DNA from: Prosthecobacter debontii | GTDB taxonomy: Bacteria > Verrucomicrobiota > Verrucomicrobiia > Verrucomicrobiales > Verrucomicrobiaceae | NCBI GenBank assembly: GCA_945860295.1 | Contig: CAMAQH010000017.1 | Span: 1-64,000, forward strand | Direction: 5' to 3' | DNA: 64,000 bases | Part shown: positions 2,800 to 41,585 of the stretch, in pieces | Layout of the letters: every line of letters starts with the position of its first letter | How positions within the stretch are numbered: position 1 is the first letter of the stretch | The notes under the pieces: generated by a model | Seen by the model: only the letters and a program-made list of their open reading frames with translations | What the model was told of the DNA's origin: nothing | The model's database searches: none | Translations under genes and position numbers: made by a program

Positions 2800-3729
2800 A
2801 TGCCCACATGGGCACTCCAAGCCATGAACACAACTACCACCGCCTCATCCACCATCACCAAACCCATGCTCGCCGATAAATGCGAGCGTCTCCATGCCCT
2901 CAGCTTCCCGCTGCTGGCCACGCCCAAGCTCGACGGCATTCGCTGCCTCAAGATCAATGGCCGCGCCCTGACGCGCAGCTTCAAGCCGGTGTCCAACCGC
3001 TTCATTCGCGAGTGGATCGAAGCCAACCTGCCTGATGGGTTGGATGGCGAGTTGATCGTCAAAGGCACCACCTTCAACGAAACCGCCGGGCATGTGGGCC
3101 GCGAGAGCGGTGAACCCGACTTCACCTTCGCCGTCTTCGACTATGTGAGCGAGGGCCTCGACGTGCCGTATGCCTGCCGCATGCAGGAACTCGCGCGTCT
3201 GCCGGACTACGAGCGCGTCGATAAAGTGCTGCCCGAGGAGATGCGCTCGCTGGACGAGCTCATGGCCTATGAGGAGCGCTGCGTGAGTGAGGGTTACGAG
3301 GGCGTCATGATTCGCACGCCGGGTTCCCCTTACAAGTGTGGCCGCTCCACGGAGCGCGAGGGCTACCTGCTCAAGATCAAGCGCTTCGAGGACGCGGAGG
3401 CGGTGGTGCTCGACACCTATGAGGGCATGAGCAATCACAACGCGGCTGAGAAGGACGCGTTTGGGCGCACCAAGCGCAGCATGGCGCAGTCCGGCATGGT
3501 CGGGCGCGGTGAACTCGGCGGCTTTGTCGTCAAGCAAGTGGAGACGGGCATCGAGTTCCGCGTGGGTTACAACCACGTCGTCGGTGGGGTGGACCGTATC
3601 ACCCTGTGGCAGCAGCGCGACGCGCTCATTGGCAGGATGGTGAAGTTCATGCACCAGCCCAGCGGCGCGAAGGAAGCGCCCAGGTTCCCGAAGTTCATCG
3701 GGTTTCGCGAGCCGTGGGACCTCTCATAA
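2800..3729 (+). CDS. ATP-dependent DNA ligase, phage-type
   Basis: A 309-residue minimal ligase. Motif I KLDGIR carries the predicted adenylated lysine at position 43. Motif III is FAVFDYV (about 110-116), motif IV EGVMIR (about 167-172) and motif V LLKIKR (about 190-195). A C-terminal OB-fold-like part follows. This is the domain set of small phage or plasmid ligases that seal nicks using ATP; bacterial replication normally uses the NAD-dependent LigA. The start at 2800 fits the spacing from the upstream repeat; a second ATG at 2824 would remove eight residues. It probably belongs to the island's own DNA maintenance set. Confidence 0.92.
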   Translation: MPTWALQAMNTTTTASSTITKPMLADKCERLHALSFPLLATPKLDGIRCLKINGRALTRSFKPVSNRFIREWIEANLPDGLDGELIVKGTTFNETAGHVGRESGEPDFTFAVFDYVSEGLDVPYACRMQELARLPDYERVDKVLPEEMRSLDELMAYEERCVSEGYEGVMIRTPGSPYKCGRSTEREGYLLKIKRFEDAEAVVLDTYEGMSNHNAAEKDAFGRTKRSMAQSGMVGRGELGGFVVKQVETGIEFRVGYNHVVGGVDRITLWQQRDALIGRMVKFMHQPSGAKEAPRFPKFIGFREPWDLS

Positions 3730-19443: not shown

Positions 19444-19475
19444 TGGCTAAGCCAATTTAGAAATTGGCTTAGCCA
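19444..19475. promoter_or_regulatory. Operator-like perfect palindrome between gntR and deoC
   Basis: TGGCTAAGCCAATTT, AG, then the exact reverse complement: 15-bp arms with a 2-bp centre. Each arm contains a near-palindromic TGGCTWAGCCA, so there are two 11-bp sub-sites, which suits two GntR dimers. It lies 12 bp before the deoC ATG and 15 bp before the gntR ATG. It would block transcription or translation start of both genes. Confidence 0.85.
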
Positions 19476-38809: not shown

Positions 38810-39988
38810 ATGACTCCACTTTATCATCTCCGCGCAGGCATCATCGGCACAGGTTTTATCGGCCCCGTTCACATTGAGGCGCTGAAGCGGCTAGGGGTTC
38901 AGATCACGGCGGTTTGTGGCTCGTCGAAGAGTGCGCGGAAGATCGCAGATCTCTGGGGCATTCCTGAGGTGTATGGCGACTACGATCATGAGGCGATGTA
39001 TGCGAGTCCGAACGTGGATGTGGTCCATATCACCTCACCCAACAAAGCGCATGTGGAGCAGTGCTTGCAGGCTTTGGAAATGGGCAAGCATGTCATCTGT
39101 GAAAAGCCGCTGGGCATGACCACGAGCGAAACGGCGAAGGTGGTCGAGGCCGTGAAGAAGGGTGGCAAAAAGGGGCCGGTGTTCGCGGTGAATTATATGT
39201 GCCGCTTCTTTCCCGCTGTGCTGCAAATGCGCGCCATGGTGGAGCGCGGGGATCTCGGCAAGATCATTCATGTTCAGGGTCAGTTCTTCCAGGACTGGCT
39301 GCTGCATGAGAGCGATTACAACTGGCGCGTCATCGCTAGCGAGGGTGGCAAGTTACGTGCCGTGGGTGACATCGGCACGCATTGGATCGATGCCGTTAGC
39401 TTCATTCTCGGAGCCAAAGCGCAAAGTGTGTTTGCCCACATCGAAACCTTTCATAAAACCCGCCTGCGCCCGAAGGGTGAAGTTCAGACCTTTGCCAAGG
39501 TCGATCCGAAAACGATGGTGCCCTACAAGGTGGACACCGAGGACTTCGGTAGCGTGCTGTTGAAGTTCGGCAAGGCGAAGCATGGCAACGCGGATGGAGT
39601 CCACGCCAATGCCAGTATCTCGCAGGTCGCCGCAGGCTCGAAGTGCAGTCTTGGCCTCGGTATTTACGGCACCAAGGGCAGTGTGCGCTGGGATCTCCAG
39701 CAGCCGAATGAAATCATCCTCGGTCGACGTGATGAACCGAATCAGATTCTTCAGCGTGGCACGCCCGGCTTCATGGAGGACGTGGCCAATTTTACCGACT
39801 ATCCAGGCGGACATCCCGAAGGTTTTAACGATGCCCACAAGATGCATTACCGCGCCGTGTATGAGCACATCGCCAGCGGCAAAAAGACGCCTGCTTTTTT
39901 CGCCACCGCAGCAGATGGCTATCATGAAGTGAAGCTCTGCGAGGCGATCCTGCAGAGTAGCCTAACAAAAACGTGGGTGAAAGTTTAG
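38810..39988 (+). CDS. Gfo/Idh/MocA family oxidoreductase
   Basis: A 392-residue NAD(P)-dependent dehydrogenase. The Rossmann motif is GIIGTGFIGPVH. CEKPLGMTTSE is the cofactor-side lysine motif. DIGTHWIDAVSFILG in the C-terminal domain has the catalytic histidine. Members oxidise or epimerise sugars and inositols. The downstream sugar isomerase-type gene at 40671 suggests a shared pathway, interrupted by the ATPase remnant between them. Confidence 0.9.
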   Translation: MTPLYHLRAGIIGTGFIGPVHIEALKRLGVQITAVCGSSKSARKIADLWGIPEVYGDYDHEAMYASPNVDVVHITSPNKAHVEQCLQALEMGKHVICEKPLGMTTSETAKVVEAVKKGGKKGPVFAVNYMCRFFPAVLQMRAMVERGDLGKIIHVQGQFFQDWLLHESDYNWRVIASEGGKLRAVGDIGTHWIDAVSFILGAKAQSVFAHIETFHKTRLRPKGEVQTFAKVDPKTMVPYKVDTEDFGSVLLKFGKAKHGNADGVHANASISQVAAGSKCSLGLGIYGTKGSVRWDLQQPNEIILGRRDEPNQILQRGTPGFMEDVANFTDYPGGHPEGFNDAHKMHYRAVYEHIASGKKTPAFFATAADGYHEVKLCEAILQSSLTKTWVKV

Positions 39989-40010: not shown

Positions 40011-40049
40011 TTTTGAGCGATTTAATCTGGCAGTTTAGATTCCTCAAAA
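40011..40049. promoter_or_regulatory. Imperfect long palindrome before the ATPase remnant
   Basis: A 19+1+19 palindrome with four mismatched pairs: TTTTGAGCGATTTAATCTG, G, CAGTTTAGATTCCTCAAAA. It ends at the ATG of the decayed ATPase gene. It is clearly the same element as the perfect copy at 40611-40647. Confidence 0.7.
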
Positions 40050-40579
40050 TGAAAGCCATCGATCGAGATATCAAAAAGCACCCTGTCACTGCAGCCAAAA
40101 ACTTTCCGGCGACCATCATCACGGGGCCGCGCCGCGCAGGTAAAACCTATCTGTGGCGTCACCTCTTTCCGAAGGCGGATTAATATCTTTTTGAAGATCC
40201 TGACATCATCTCCCGCTTCCGTCAGGACCCGCAAGGTTTTCTGGATGGCGTGATGCCGCCAGTCATCCTGGATGAGATTCTAATTCTGGGCTGCGCCGTG
40301 AACTCTACTACTTCCGTGATCAGCAGGGACTGGAGGTTGACTTTGTTGTTCCTGGAAAGAATGGCTCCATGCGCATGATCGAGGCCGAAGCAGCGCGCAC
40401 CGTGAGGCCGGACATGACCTTGCCCATGCGCCGTCTGGCGTAAGCACTTCGGTGATAAGCGTGCGGTGAAGAGCCTGCTCGTTCACCGTCCGGTGCGCGC
40501 TGCGGTGGCTTCGAGAGCCATCGCCAAAGAGGTGGAGGTCTGTTCATGGAAAGACTTGGCTAGTTACATCAAAGGCTGA
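40049..40579 (+). pseudogene. Decayed AAA_14/DUF4143-type ATPase
   Basis: Pieces of one ATPase gene can be read across frames. The N-terminus has Walker A TGPRRAGKT; an in-frame TAA interrupts at 40181. A Walker-B-like PPVILDEI follows. The frame then jumps to a C-terminal fragment (GLRRELYYFRDQQGLEVDFV) with a large internal deletion. A further shift near 40440 leads to the C-terminal end VEVCSWKDLASYIKG. Intact members are about 400 residues with unknown roles. It is flanked by two copies of the same palindrome. Confidence 0.82.
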
Positions 40580-40610
40580 TCAAAAAAGCATCTTTTCATC
40601 TCTTCCACAC

Positions 40611-40647
40611 TTTGAGCAATCTAAACTGTCAGTTTAGATTGCTCAAA
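40611..40647. promoter_or_regulatory. Perfect 37-bp palindrome before the sugar isomerase gene
   Basis: TTTGAGCAATCTAAACTG, T, then its exact reverse complement: 18-bp arms with a single-base centre. It lies 24 bp before the ATG at 40671 and 31 bp after the ATPase remnant. It could act as an operator or, as RNA, as a hairpin. Confidence 0.8.
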
Positions 40648-40670: not shown

Positions 40671-41585
40671 ATGAAACTTGGTTTTGTCTCCGCCATTCTC
40701 CCTGAGCTGTCTTTGAATGAAGTGCTCGCCTTTGCCTCACATGAGGTCTTCTCCACCGTGGAAATCATGTGCTGGCCCGTCGGCAAGGTGGAGCGCAAGT
40801 TTGCCGGTGTCACTCATCTCGATGTCACGGACCTAACCAAGACCCGCTCGGAGGATGTGCGAAAGCTCTGTGAAGATCATGGCGTGGGCATCAGCGCGCT
40901 CGGGTATTACCCGAACATGCTCGATCCAGATCCCGAGGTCTCGCGCGTGGCCGTGGCTCACTTCAAGAAAGTCATCAAAGCTGCGCCCTTGCTTGGTTTG
41001 AAAAACGTCAACGGCTTTGTCGGTCGCGACTGGACCAAGACCGTCGATGAAAACTGGCCGCGCTTTCTCAAGATCTGGAAGCCCATCATTGAATACGCCG
41101 AGGCGCATGGCGTGAAGATCGGTATCGAAAACTGCCCCATGTCCTTCACCCGCGACGAATGGCCCGGCGGCAAGAACCTCATGACCACGCCCGCGATTTG
41201 GCGTCGCGCTTTCAATGACATCGACTCGCCCAACTTCGGTCTGAACTACGATCCAAGCCACTTCATCCTCCAAGGCATGGACCCGCTCAGCCCCCTGGCC
41301 GAGTTCAAATCCAAGCTCTTCCATCTCCACGCCAAGGACGTCAAAATTAACCACGCCGCGCTGAATGAAGTCGGCTGCTTCGACTTTCCGCTCAACTGGC
41401 ATCAGCCTCGCATCCCAGGTTATGGCGACATCAACTGGGCTGCCTTCATGGGAGAACTCATGCGTATCGGCTACGACGGCCCTCTCTGCATCGAAGTCGA
41501 AGACGACACCTTCGGCAAAACTCTGGATGGCCGCATGAAGGCGATCAAAGTCGCGAGAAACGTGCTCGCGCCGTTCTTTGGGTGA
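40671..41585 (+). CDS. Sugar phosphate isomerase/epimerase (xylose-isomerase-like TIM barrel)
   Basis: A 304-residue AP-endonuclease-2 superfamily protein. The metal-binding positions are visible: IGIENCPM, LNYDPSHF, LFHLHAKD and CIEVEDD provide Glu, Asp/His, His and Glu. Members isomerise or epimerise ketoses and inositols. It lies after the Gfo/Idh/MocA dehydrogenase, a frequent partner in inositol and glucoside breakdown. The perfect palindrome at 40611 lies in its promoter region. Confidence 0.88.
   Translation: MKLGFVSAILPELSLNEVLAFASHEVFSTVEIMCWPVGKVERKFAGVTHLDVTDLTKTRSEDVRKLCEDHGVGISALGYYPNMLDPDPEVSRVAVAHFKKVIKAAPLLGLKNVNGFVGRDWTKTVDENWPRFLKIWKPIIEYAEAHGVKIGIENCPMSFTRDEWPGGKNLMTTPAIWRRAFNDIDSPNFGLNYDPSHFILQGMDPLSPLAEFKSKLFHLHAKDVKINHAALNEVGCFDFPLNWHQPRIPGYGDINWAAFMGELMRIGYDGPLCIEVEDDTFGKTLDGRMKAIKVARNVLAPFFG

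Follow-up and report, generated by a model that had tools for sequence, protein, structure and literature searches.

Palindromes flanking a gene are known from REP/REPIN sequences with their RAYT genes and from the hairpin ends of IS200/IS605 elements, and toxin-antitoxin operons are autoregulated. The insertion of restriction-modification genes with long target duplication was reportedly described by Nobusato et al. in 2000. This mode of insertion is dealt with in the available parts of two papers on restriction-modification genes (PMC3031569, PMC1643837), and titles cited in PMC3874152 place palindromes at mazEF and yefM-yoeB. According to the accessible text of PMC12988326, the defence candidate PDC-S01 joins an ATPase domain to a member of the PD-(D/E)XK superfamily and ranks fourth in frequency among the defences of all prokaryotes; validation is stated there to be pending for most such candidates. 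The same text gives neither a mechanism nor an insertion mode for PDC-S01, and two features described here make both testable. The first is a lineage-specific palindrome at the start of the gene, which predicts autoregulation by a winged helix; the second is the long target duplications, by which insertions can be mapped. The literature searched contained no paper linking DUF4143 with palindromes, and COG1373 together with palindrome retrieved only a Rickettsia genome paper which, in its accessible part, looks unrelated. Related literature, also available in part, comprises PMC2654758, PMC13356809 and PMC4406477.

The degraded unit in the window and its intact relatives

The window, i.e. the whole 64,000-nucleotide stretch that was analysed, carries the following features at the locus:

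38810..39988, + strand: left neighbour, Gfo/Idh/MocA oxidoreductase gene (the dehydrogenase below); target context outside the unit, adjoining the isomerase gene in empty relatives
40012..40048, no strand: decayed palindrome on the upstream side, at the start codon, with 14 of 18 arm pairs matching; it abuts the remnant ATG
40049..40579, + strand: AAA_14/DUF4143 ATPase remnant (PDC-S01 type), 54-71% identical to an intact 394-aa relative
40611..40647, no strand: downstream palindrome, perfect, 18-bp arms plus 1 nt, from the palindrome scan
40671..41585, + strand: right neighbour, AP_endonuc_2/xylose-isomerase-like TIM barrel, sugar-isomerase-like; target context outside the unit

The first-pass annotation had reported an imperfect palindrome at the ATG of a broken AAA_14/DUF4143-like ATPase gene and a perfect 37-bp version of it between the remnant and a sugar isomerase gene, and both were found. 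The upstream palindrome (TTTGAGCGATTTAATCTGGCAGTTTAGATTCCTCAAA) consists of 18-bp arms and a 1-nt spacer with 4 of the 18 pairs mismatched, and the ATG at 40049 follows it directly. The downstream palindrome has no mismatch in its 18 pairs and is the longest perfect palindrome in the 64-kb window (scan for arms of at least 11 and spacers of 0-3). The 23-bp palindrome core, with up to 3 mismatches, occurs in the window at these two places and nowhere else, and none of 100 shuffles gave two matches. In the whole assembly, the 37-mer within 3 mismatches was matched by the perfect copy only. The upstream copy is decayed, and so is its gene, in the remnant of which residues 1-93, 289-347 and 345-390 of the intact relative are kept at 69, 71 and 54% identity, respectively. 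A TAA at 40181, frame changes and the loss of about 195 codons between the N-terminal ~93 codons and the C-terminal part have broken the gene, and PF13173 scored 26.6 bits on the remnant, just under its curated cut-off of 27, with one TAA within the match. Intact or less decayed counterparts of the upstream palindrome are present in four relatives (G003, G014, G031 and G039) and at locus L090. The window thus holds the dead remains of a defence-candidate gene that is mobile and capped by palindromes.

When 189 genomes were searched with up to 3 mismatches, the palindrome was found in five, all of one genus: once in the genome of the window, twice in each of four relatives (G003, G014, G031 and G039) and in none of the other 184. 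The paired palindromes of these four lie about 1240 bp apart and enclose an intact ATPase gene, so the intact unit (palindrome-ATPase-palindrome) measures about 1.28 kb. In two more relatives (G021 and G035) the ATPase is 75% identical and has an imperfect palindrome on either side. Nine loci came from a scan of named genomes, which added L090, where both palindromes are present, and L093, where the copy is truncated and has the upstream palindrome. Both palindromes are present in eight of the nine focal-clade units including that of the window, and the ninth unit is broken. Versions of the palindrome thus bracket seven intact relatives (G003, G014, G031, G039, G021, G035 and L090). Farther away, a Syntrophaceae MAG (L092, 57% identity) has an imperfect upstream palindrome only, and its ATPase gene sits between apparent histidine-kinase and response-regulator genes. 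The contig of L093 (JAAUPF010000142.1) is labelled Richelia, a cyanobacterium, and bears an apparent verrucomicrobial binding-protein 3′ end next to the truncated ATPase; it is possibly mis-binned.

Three insertion sites were recognized. The dehydrogenase-isomerase site is occupied in the window, G003 and G039 and empty in four relatives (G037, G023, G045 and G017), in which the two genes are adjacent (20-78 bp) with neither ATPase nor palindrome between them. At the transporter site, in G021, G035 and L090, the unit has a sugar-binding-protein-like gene on one side and a permease gene on the other, with one further small gene between unit and permease in L090; in 23 of the 25 permease loci without ATPase, the binding-protein gene lies 12-616 bp upstream of the permease gene. 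At the third site, the 3′ end of purK beyond a dehydrogenase gene, the unit is present in G014 and G031, and G036, G008, G032 and G011 have the dehydrogenase gene and one purK end without ATPase. These four are the only ones among 30 dehydrogenase loci with purK in the flank, and G011 is cut by the locus end. Since the intact unit has been found at three sites and each of these is empty in some other relatives, the suggestion of a mobile unit that had inserted between pathway genes is supported, and the mobility of the palindrome-ATPase unit is well supported. The unit would have entered the dehydrogenase-isomerase gap in an ancestor common to this genome, G003 and G039, or else relatives would have lost it.

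In G014 both junctions at purK can be read. On the left, the last ~175 nt of purK start at a distance of 17-21 nt from the palindrome, and on the right a decayed purK end (72 nt at 68%) stops 1 nt from the right palindrome; at this site the palindromes are at the borders of the inserted DNA. No direct left-right repeat was found at the dehydrogenase-isomerase borders in the window genome, G003 or G039, where there were weak scattered matches only, and no flanking host duplication was detected at the transporter insertions. Because these two sites are without one, a long target duplication is seen in the focal clade only at purK, with its decayed right copy.

All three sites in the genus adjoin metabolic genes, and the perfect copy stands 23 nt before the isomerase ATG, as might be expected if the palindromes were bound by a regulator of the host that controls metabolic genes (dehydrogenase, isomerase, ABC transporter), with the ATPase being incidental. 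However, the relatives lacking the ATPase have the same metabolic genes and no palindrome in the gaps examined, the pattern within 3 mismatches occurs at most twice per genome and then beside an ATPase gene or remnant in the 5 of 189 genomes, and other ATPases bear other palindromes. We therefore consider such a pure operator function exceedingly improbable. The palindrome-free empty relatives also rule out two narrower candidates, an operator of the host sugar genes and a target duplication of the dehydrogenase-isomerase site, and a dispersed REP-like repeat is ruled out by the maximum of two matches per genome within 3 mismatches. The first-pass annotation had also placed the downstream copy in the promoter region of the isomerase gene. 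This holds for the window; in the intact relatives G003 and G039, however, 110 bp separate palindrome and isomerase gene, and the closeness is therefore local. The intact palindrome beside the isomerase gene may have been kept as a promoter, or its survival may be mere chance.

Some neighbouring observations can be added. A perfect palindrome with 15-bp arms (TGGCTAAGCCAATTTAGAAATTGGCTTAGCCA) at 19444-19475 of the window lies, by eye, between a divergent regulator gene and a deoC-like gene and is probably an ordinary operator. On contig C381 of G014 (L022), a further copy of the purK 3′ end (90 nt, 93%) lies about 700 nt to the right of the unit, past small genes resembling, by eye, a DUF433/DUF5615 pair; a second hot spot of insertion may exist at the purK 3′ end. 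The binding protein-permease gap, which is the ATPase site in G021 and G035, measures 247-306 bp in L211, L213, L214, L216, L217, L221, L225 and L232, and other small ORFs seem, by eye, to be present in it; the gap may be a general landing site. The same gap is filled in L219, L220 and L228 by GAATGACGAA/TTCGTCATTC repeats, which are REP-like in look.

Start-codon palindromes and the protein across the ATPase family

The family was surveyed in a non-random draw of 105 loci (30 + 5 + 30 + 40, the last from the upper part of its list). Distinct ORFs of at least 300 aa with a P-loop pattern were kept (99, forming 67 clusters at 70% identity) and the remaining loci were dropped. A palindrome was called when the inverted-repeat score reached at least 9 in an 80-nt window over the start region. 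By this measure 26 of the 66 clusters in the phylum have a long palindrome at the start codon, with a score of at least 12 in 11 of them, and the other 40 stay below the threshold. In the control windows, the counts were 0-5 of 62-67 clusters (15 other windows around the P-loop) and 0-6 of 62-67 (eight stop-codon windows); the proportion with a score of at least 9 averaged ~3% in the other windows and was 0.6% in shuffles. In 40 loci the palindrome lies within 46 nt upstream of the predicted start codon, with start codons considered only from 15 nt before the palindrome end onward. The sequences differ between lineages, and the commonest 5-mers of the half-arms were TGAAA (25 of 80), AAAAT and AAATC (22 each).

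Outside the phylum we took 12 plasmid loci, chosen for spread among the 60 matches listed of 383 records, and 2 of 6 phage matches. The start window scored at least 9 in 10 of these 14 loci, the highest scores being those of Spirosoma (21), Azotobacter (16) and two phage contigs (11); among the ten, the Thioflavicoccus palindrome is too far upstream and a control window of Desulfosarcina scores equally high. The members from Ensifer, Paracoccus, Thermus and Sulfitobacter scored below 6. These data show that many members of the AAA_14/DUF4143 ATPase family have a long palindrome at the start codon. The earlier idea that the palindrome travels with this ATPase family was thus supported: palindromes stand at other ATPase genes, and none was found in the four relatives in which dehydrogenase and isomerase genes adjoin without the remnant. 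A matching second palindrome after the gene is rare and was seen in the focal clade, in L116 and L147 and, weakly, in L146. In L149 (G258:C14) the ATPase start is focal-like and two long flanking palindromes differ in sequence.

The symmetry of the arms was tested with 17 focal palindromes (16 distinct) against 500 shuffles. Arm cells were paired in 93.1% compared with 90.8% in shuffles (2/500), 10 cells were changed on both sides compared with 4.4 (6/500), and the covariation score was reached in 1/500; two of the five covariation measures were unremarkable (pairs changed on both sides, 64/500; further pair types, 96/500). Sliding the partner lowered arm pairing to 20-53%. Changes in the arms thus tend to keep the symmetry, which could be due to selection, relatedness or quasipalindrome (template-switch) repair. 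Some symmetrical changes in the arms and the position at the predicted start codon would also suit a hairpin acting in RNA, e.g. as a terminator after the gene or as a translational switch over the start codon. Symmetry alone, however, is common to an RNA hairpin, a DNA cruciform and a dimer binding site, and the downstream copies examined are not followed by a T run, by which a classical terminator is ruled out. An RNA role is very unlikely in our opinion.

Intact relatives match PF13635 and PF13173 above the cut-off, and the best E values for PADLOC PDC-S01 were 1.8e-94 (L027), 3.8e-93 (L031), 2.6e-95 (L035) and 2.2e-84 (L042), a comparison made with members other than the window remnant. 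Judged by these matches, the ATPase family is the PADLOC defence candidate PDC-S01. Pfam assigned only AAA and DUF4143 families to the focal protein and no transposase family, the NCBIfam search gave no informative match, and a sequence search of solved structures with the ATPase gave no match up to E 0.1. The AlphaFold2 model had a modest mean pLDDT of 63 with a poor N-terminal half. In the Foldseek search it matched ArsR/SmtB winged helices with a probability of 0.97-1.0 and E of 0.03-0.12 (e.g. 6cdb and 1r1u), and further matches were Card1/VC1899/Can2-type proteins and the archaeal Walker ATPase 2qen; the three matches with E of at most 0.001 had TM scores of 0.20-0.24. A Spirosoma member of the family is annotated as an ‘ArsR family’ regulator. 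The VDF...ExK motif is kept in six of seven focal-type sequences, the seventh (L030 from G003) having Lys in place of Glu. Since a regular expression for PD-(D/E)XK matched just 18-19 of 97 ORFs, no family-wide claim is made for it. The predicted structure and these matches are best explained by an AAA+ ATPase with winged-helix-like and PD-(D/E)XK-like (DUF4143) parts.

Long direct duplications and the AraC 3′-end hot spot

Some members of the ATPase family lie between long direct duplications, which enclose the palindrome as well; these had not been mentioned in the first-pass annotation. A strict test, requiring a direct repeat of at least 30 nt outside the gene on both sides, was applied to 96 of the 99 loci (three had short flanks) and 26 loci, in 18 of 64 clusters, were positive. 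Their downstream copies begin between -6 and +40 nt relative to the stop codon; the other 70 ATPases had no flanking repeat by this test. Nine of the 26 repeats are the palindromes themselves and 17 (16 of 64 clusters) are other DNA of 37-284 nt, 68-100% identical. Among the controls, 1 of 147 other genes and 0 of 561 mismatched cross-locus pairs were positive; the control genes comprised further complete ORFs, 250 aa or longer, from the window and from loci numbered L021 and above, and the count becomes 2/148 with one unfiltered ATPase included. A looser test gave 36 of 99 loci as against 5 of 295 mismatched pairs. The start-region palindrome score was at least 8 in 14 of the 17 loci with duplications of other DNA (57 of 98 loci overall), and in all 14 the palindrome lies between the upstream repeat copy and the gene, so that the start palindrome is inside the unit. 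ORF inspection placed the repeat at the 3′ end of a neighbouring gene in 7 of the 17 (L051, L054, L099, L114, L127, L130 and L152). The repeats of L098 and L155 may be dispersed repeats.

The sole positive control gene other than an ATPase is an ATP-dependent DNA ligase gene (PF01068) at 2800-3729 of the window. Its 55-nt direct repeat (91%) has copies just before the start and 3 nt after the stop, a pattern like that of the ATPases.

The clearest junctions are at the 3′ end of an AraC-type gene, which has relatives in 48 of 48 genomes of the genus. On contig C15 of the genome of the window (G000), an ATPase gene follows the AraC-type gene, and the last 100 nt of the latter recur after the ATPase gene with 99 of 100 positions matching. 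The stop codon of the AraC-type gene contains the insertion point: the upstream copy ends with TAG and the downstream copy with TGA, like the empty G009. A single AraC 3′ end was found in 26 of 30 loci, in flanks covering at most 1.5 kb, and less in some cases where the contig ends. The same 3′ end is followed by a 97%-identical ATPase in G021, by a UPF0175 + DUF3368 pair with a 71-nt flanking duplication in G014 and by another gene pair with a 216-nt flanking duplication in G035, to which Pfam matched no family. The AraC 3′ end thus holds three different cassettes within one genus. Because the cassettes without ATPase in G014 and G035 are flanked likewise, the long duplication is not private to the ATPase.

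These junctions bear on whether the ATPase moves itself. The AAA+/winged-helix/PD-(D/E)XK protein might use the palindromes as termini, excise and insert the unit, and leave a long staggered cut that is repaired into a duplication. At purK no more than 1-21 nt separate the palindromes from the ends of the inserted DNA; L116, L147 and, weakly, L146 have matching palindromes of other sequences at both ends, and the predicted structure matches ATPase, DNA-binding and nuclease-like folds. Against such self-mobilization stand the same kind of long duplication around the ATPase-less cassettes at the AraC 3′ end (UPF0175 + DUF3368 in G014, the gene pair in G035), the lack of matching palindromes at both ends in all 17 loci with duplications of other DNA, and the Lys that replaces the Glu of ExK in one focal member (L030). 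As regards classical IS elements and transposons, Pfam gave no transposase of the unit's own, and no short target duplication was found in the junctions and alignments examined. We regard self-mobilization as unlikely. A broader version, in which AAA_14-DUF4143 ATPases are self-contained single-gene mobile elements, is doubtful as well, if a little less so. Their protein would recognize the palindrome of its lineage as both operator and end, and insertion near gene ends would copy tens to hundreds of bp while the target gene is kept intact. Palindrome and protein would co-evolve in this case, and each lineage would therefore have a private sequence.

The proposed module in comparison with known systems

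In our view the unit is probably a mobile defence module resembling restriction or toxin-antitoxin modules, whose winged-helix protein would repress its own gene at the palindrome. The start palindrome is the predicted operator/promoter, and repression by the winged helix of the protein would be comparable to that exerted by regulators of toxin-antitoxin and restriction-modification systems. Autoregulation is favoured for the start palindrome because ArsR-type winged helices bind inverted repeats. The second palindrome may be a copy of the operator that caps the end of the unit and insulates or drives the next gene. The module would spread by insertion with long target duplication, and host repair or recombination is the most likely route because cassettes without ATPase entered the same AraC hot spot in the same way. 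The protein itself would act as an anti-phage module. The intact copies in related bacteria hint at how such ATPase genes may be controlled and may spread.

The intact relatives match the profiles of PDC-S01 (AAA_14 + DUF4143, i.e. PF13173 + PF13635), and the second palindrome after the gene is an addition of the focal clade; the accessible text of PMC12988326 mentions no palindrome or insertion mode. With REP/REPIN-RAYT and IS200/IS605 the unit shares palindromes that flank a gene; it differs from them in the absence of dispersal (at most two matches per genome) and of a transposase family among the Pfam matches. Like toxin-antitoxin operons, the unit is a small mobile module with a palindrome spanning its start region, and its product has a winged-helix-like part; here, however, a single gene is present, no antitoxin partner was seen and repression is a prediction. 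The insertion of restriction-modification genes likewise yields a module between long, variable direct target duplications which are single-copy in relatives. Here, in contrast, the cargo is an ATPase/nuclease-like candidate (also the UPF0175/DUF3368 pair), the start palindrome is inside the unit, and the dehydrogenase-isomerase insertion is without duplication. Our results would thus widen the range of modules that insert with long target duplication, adding further addictive or defence modules to the restriction-modification genes.
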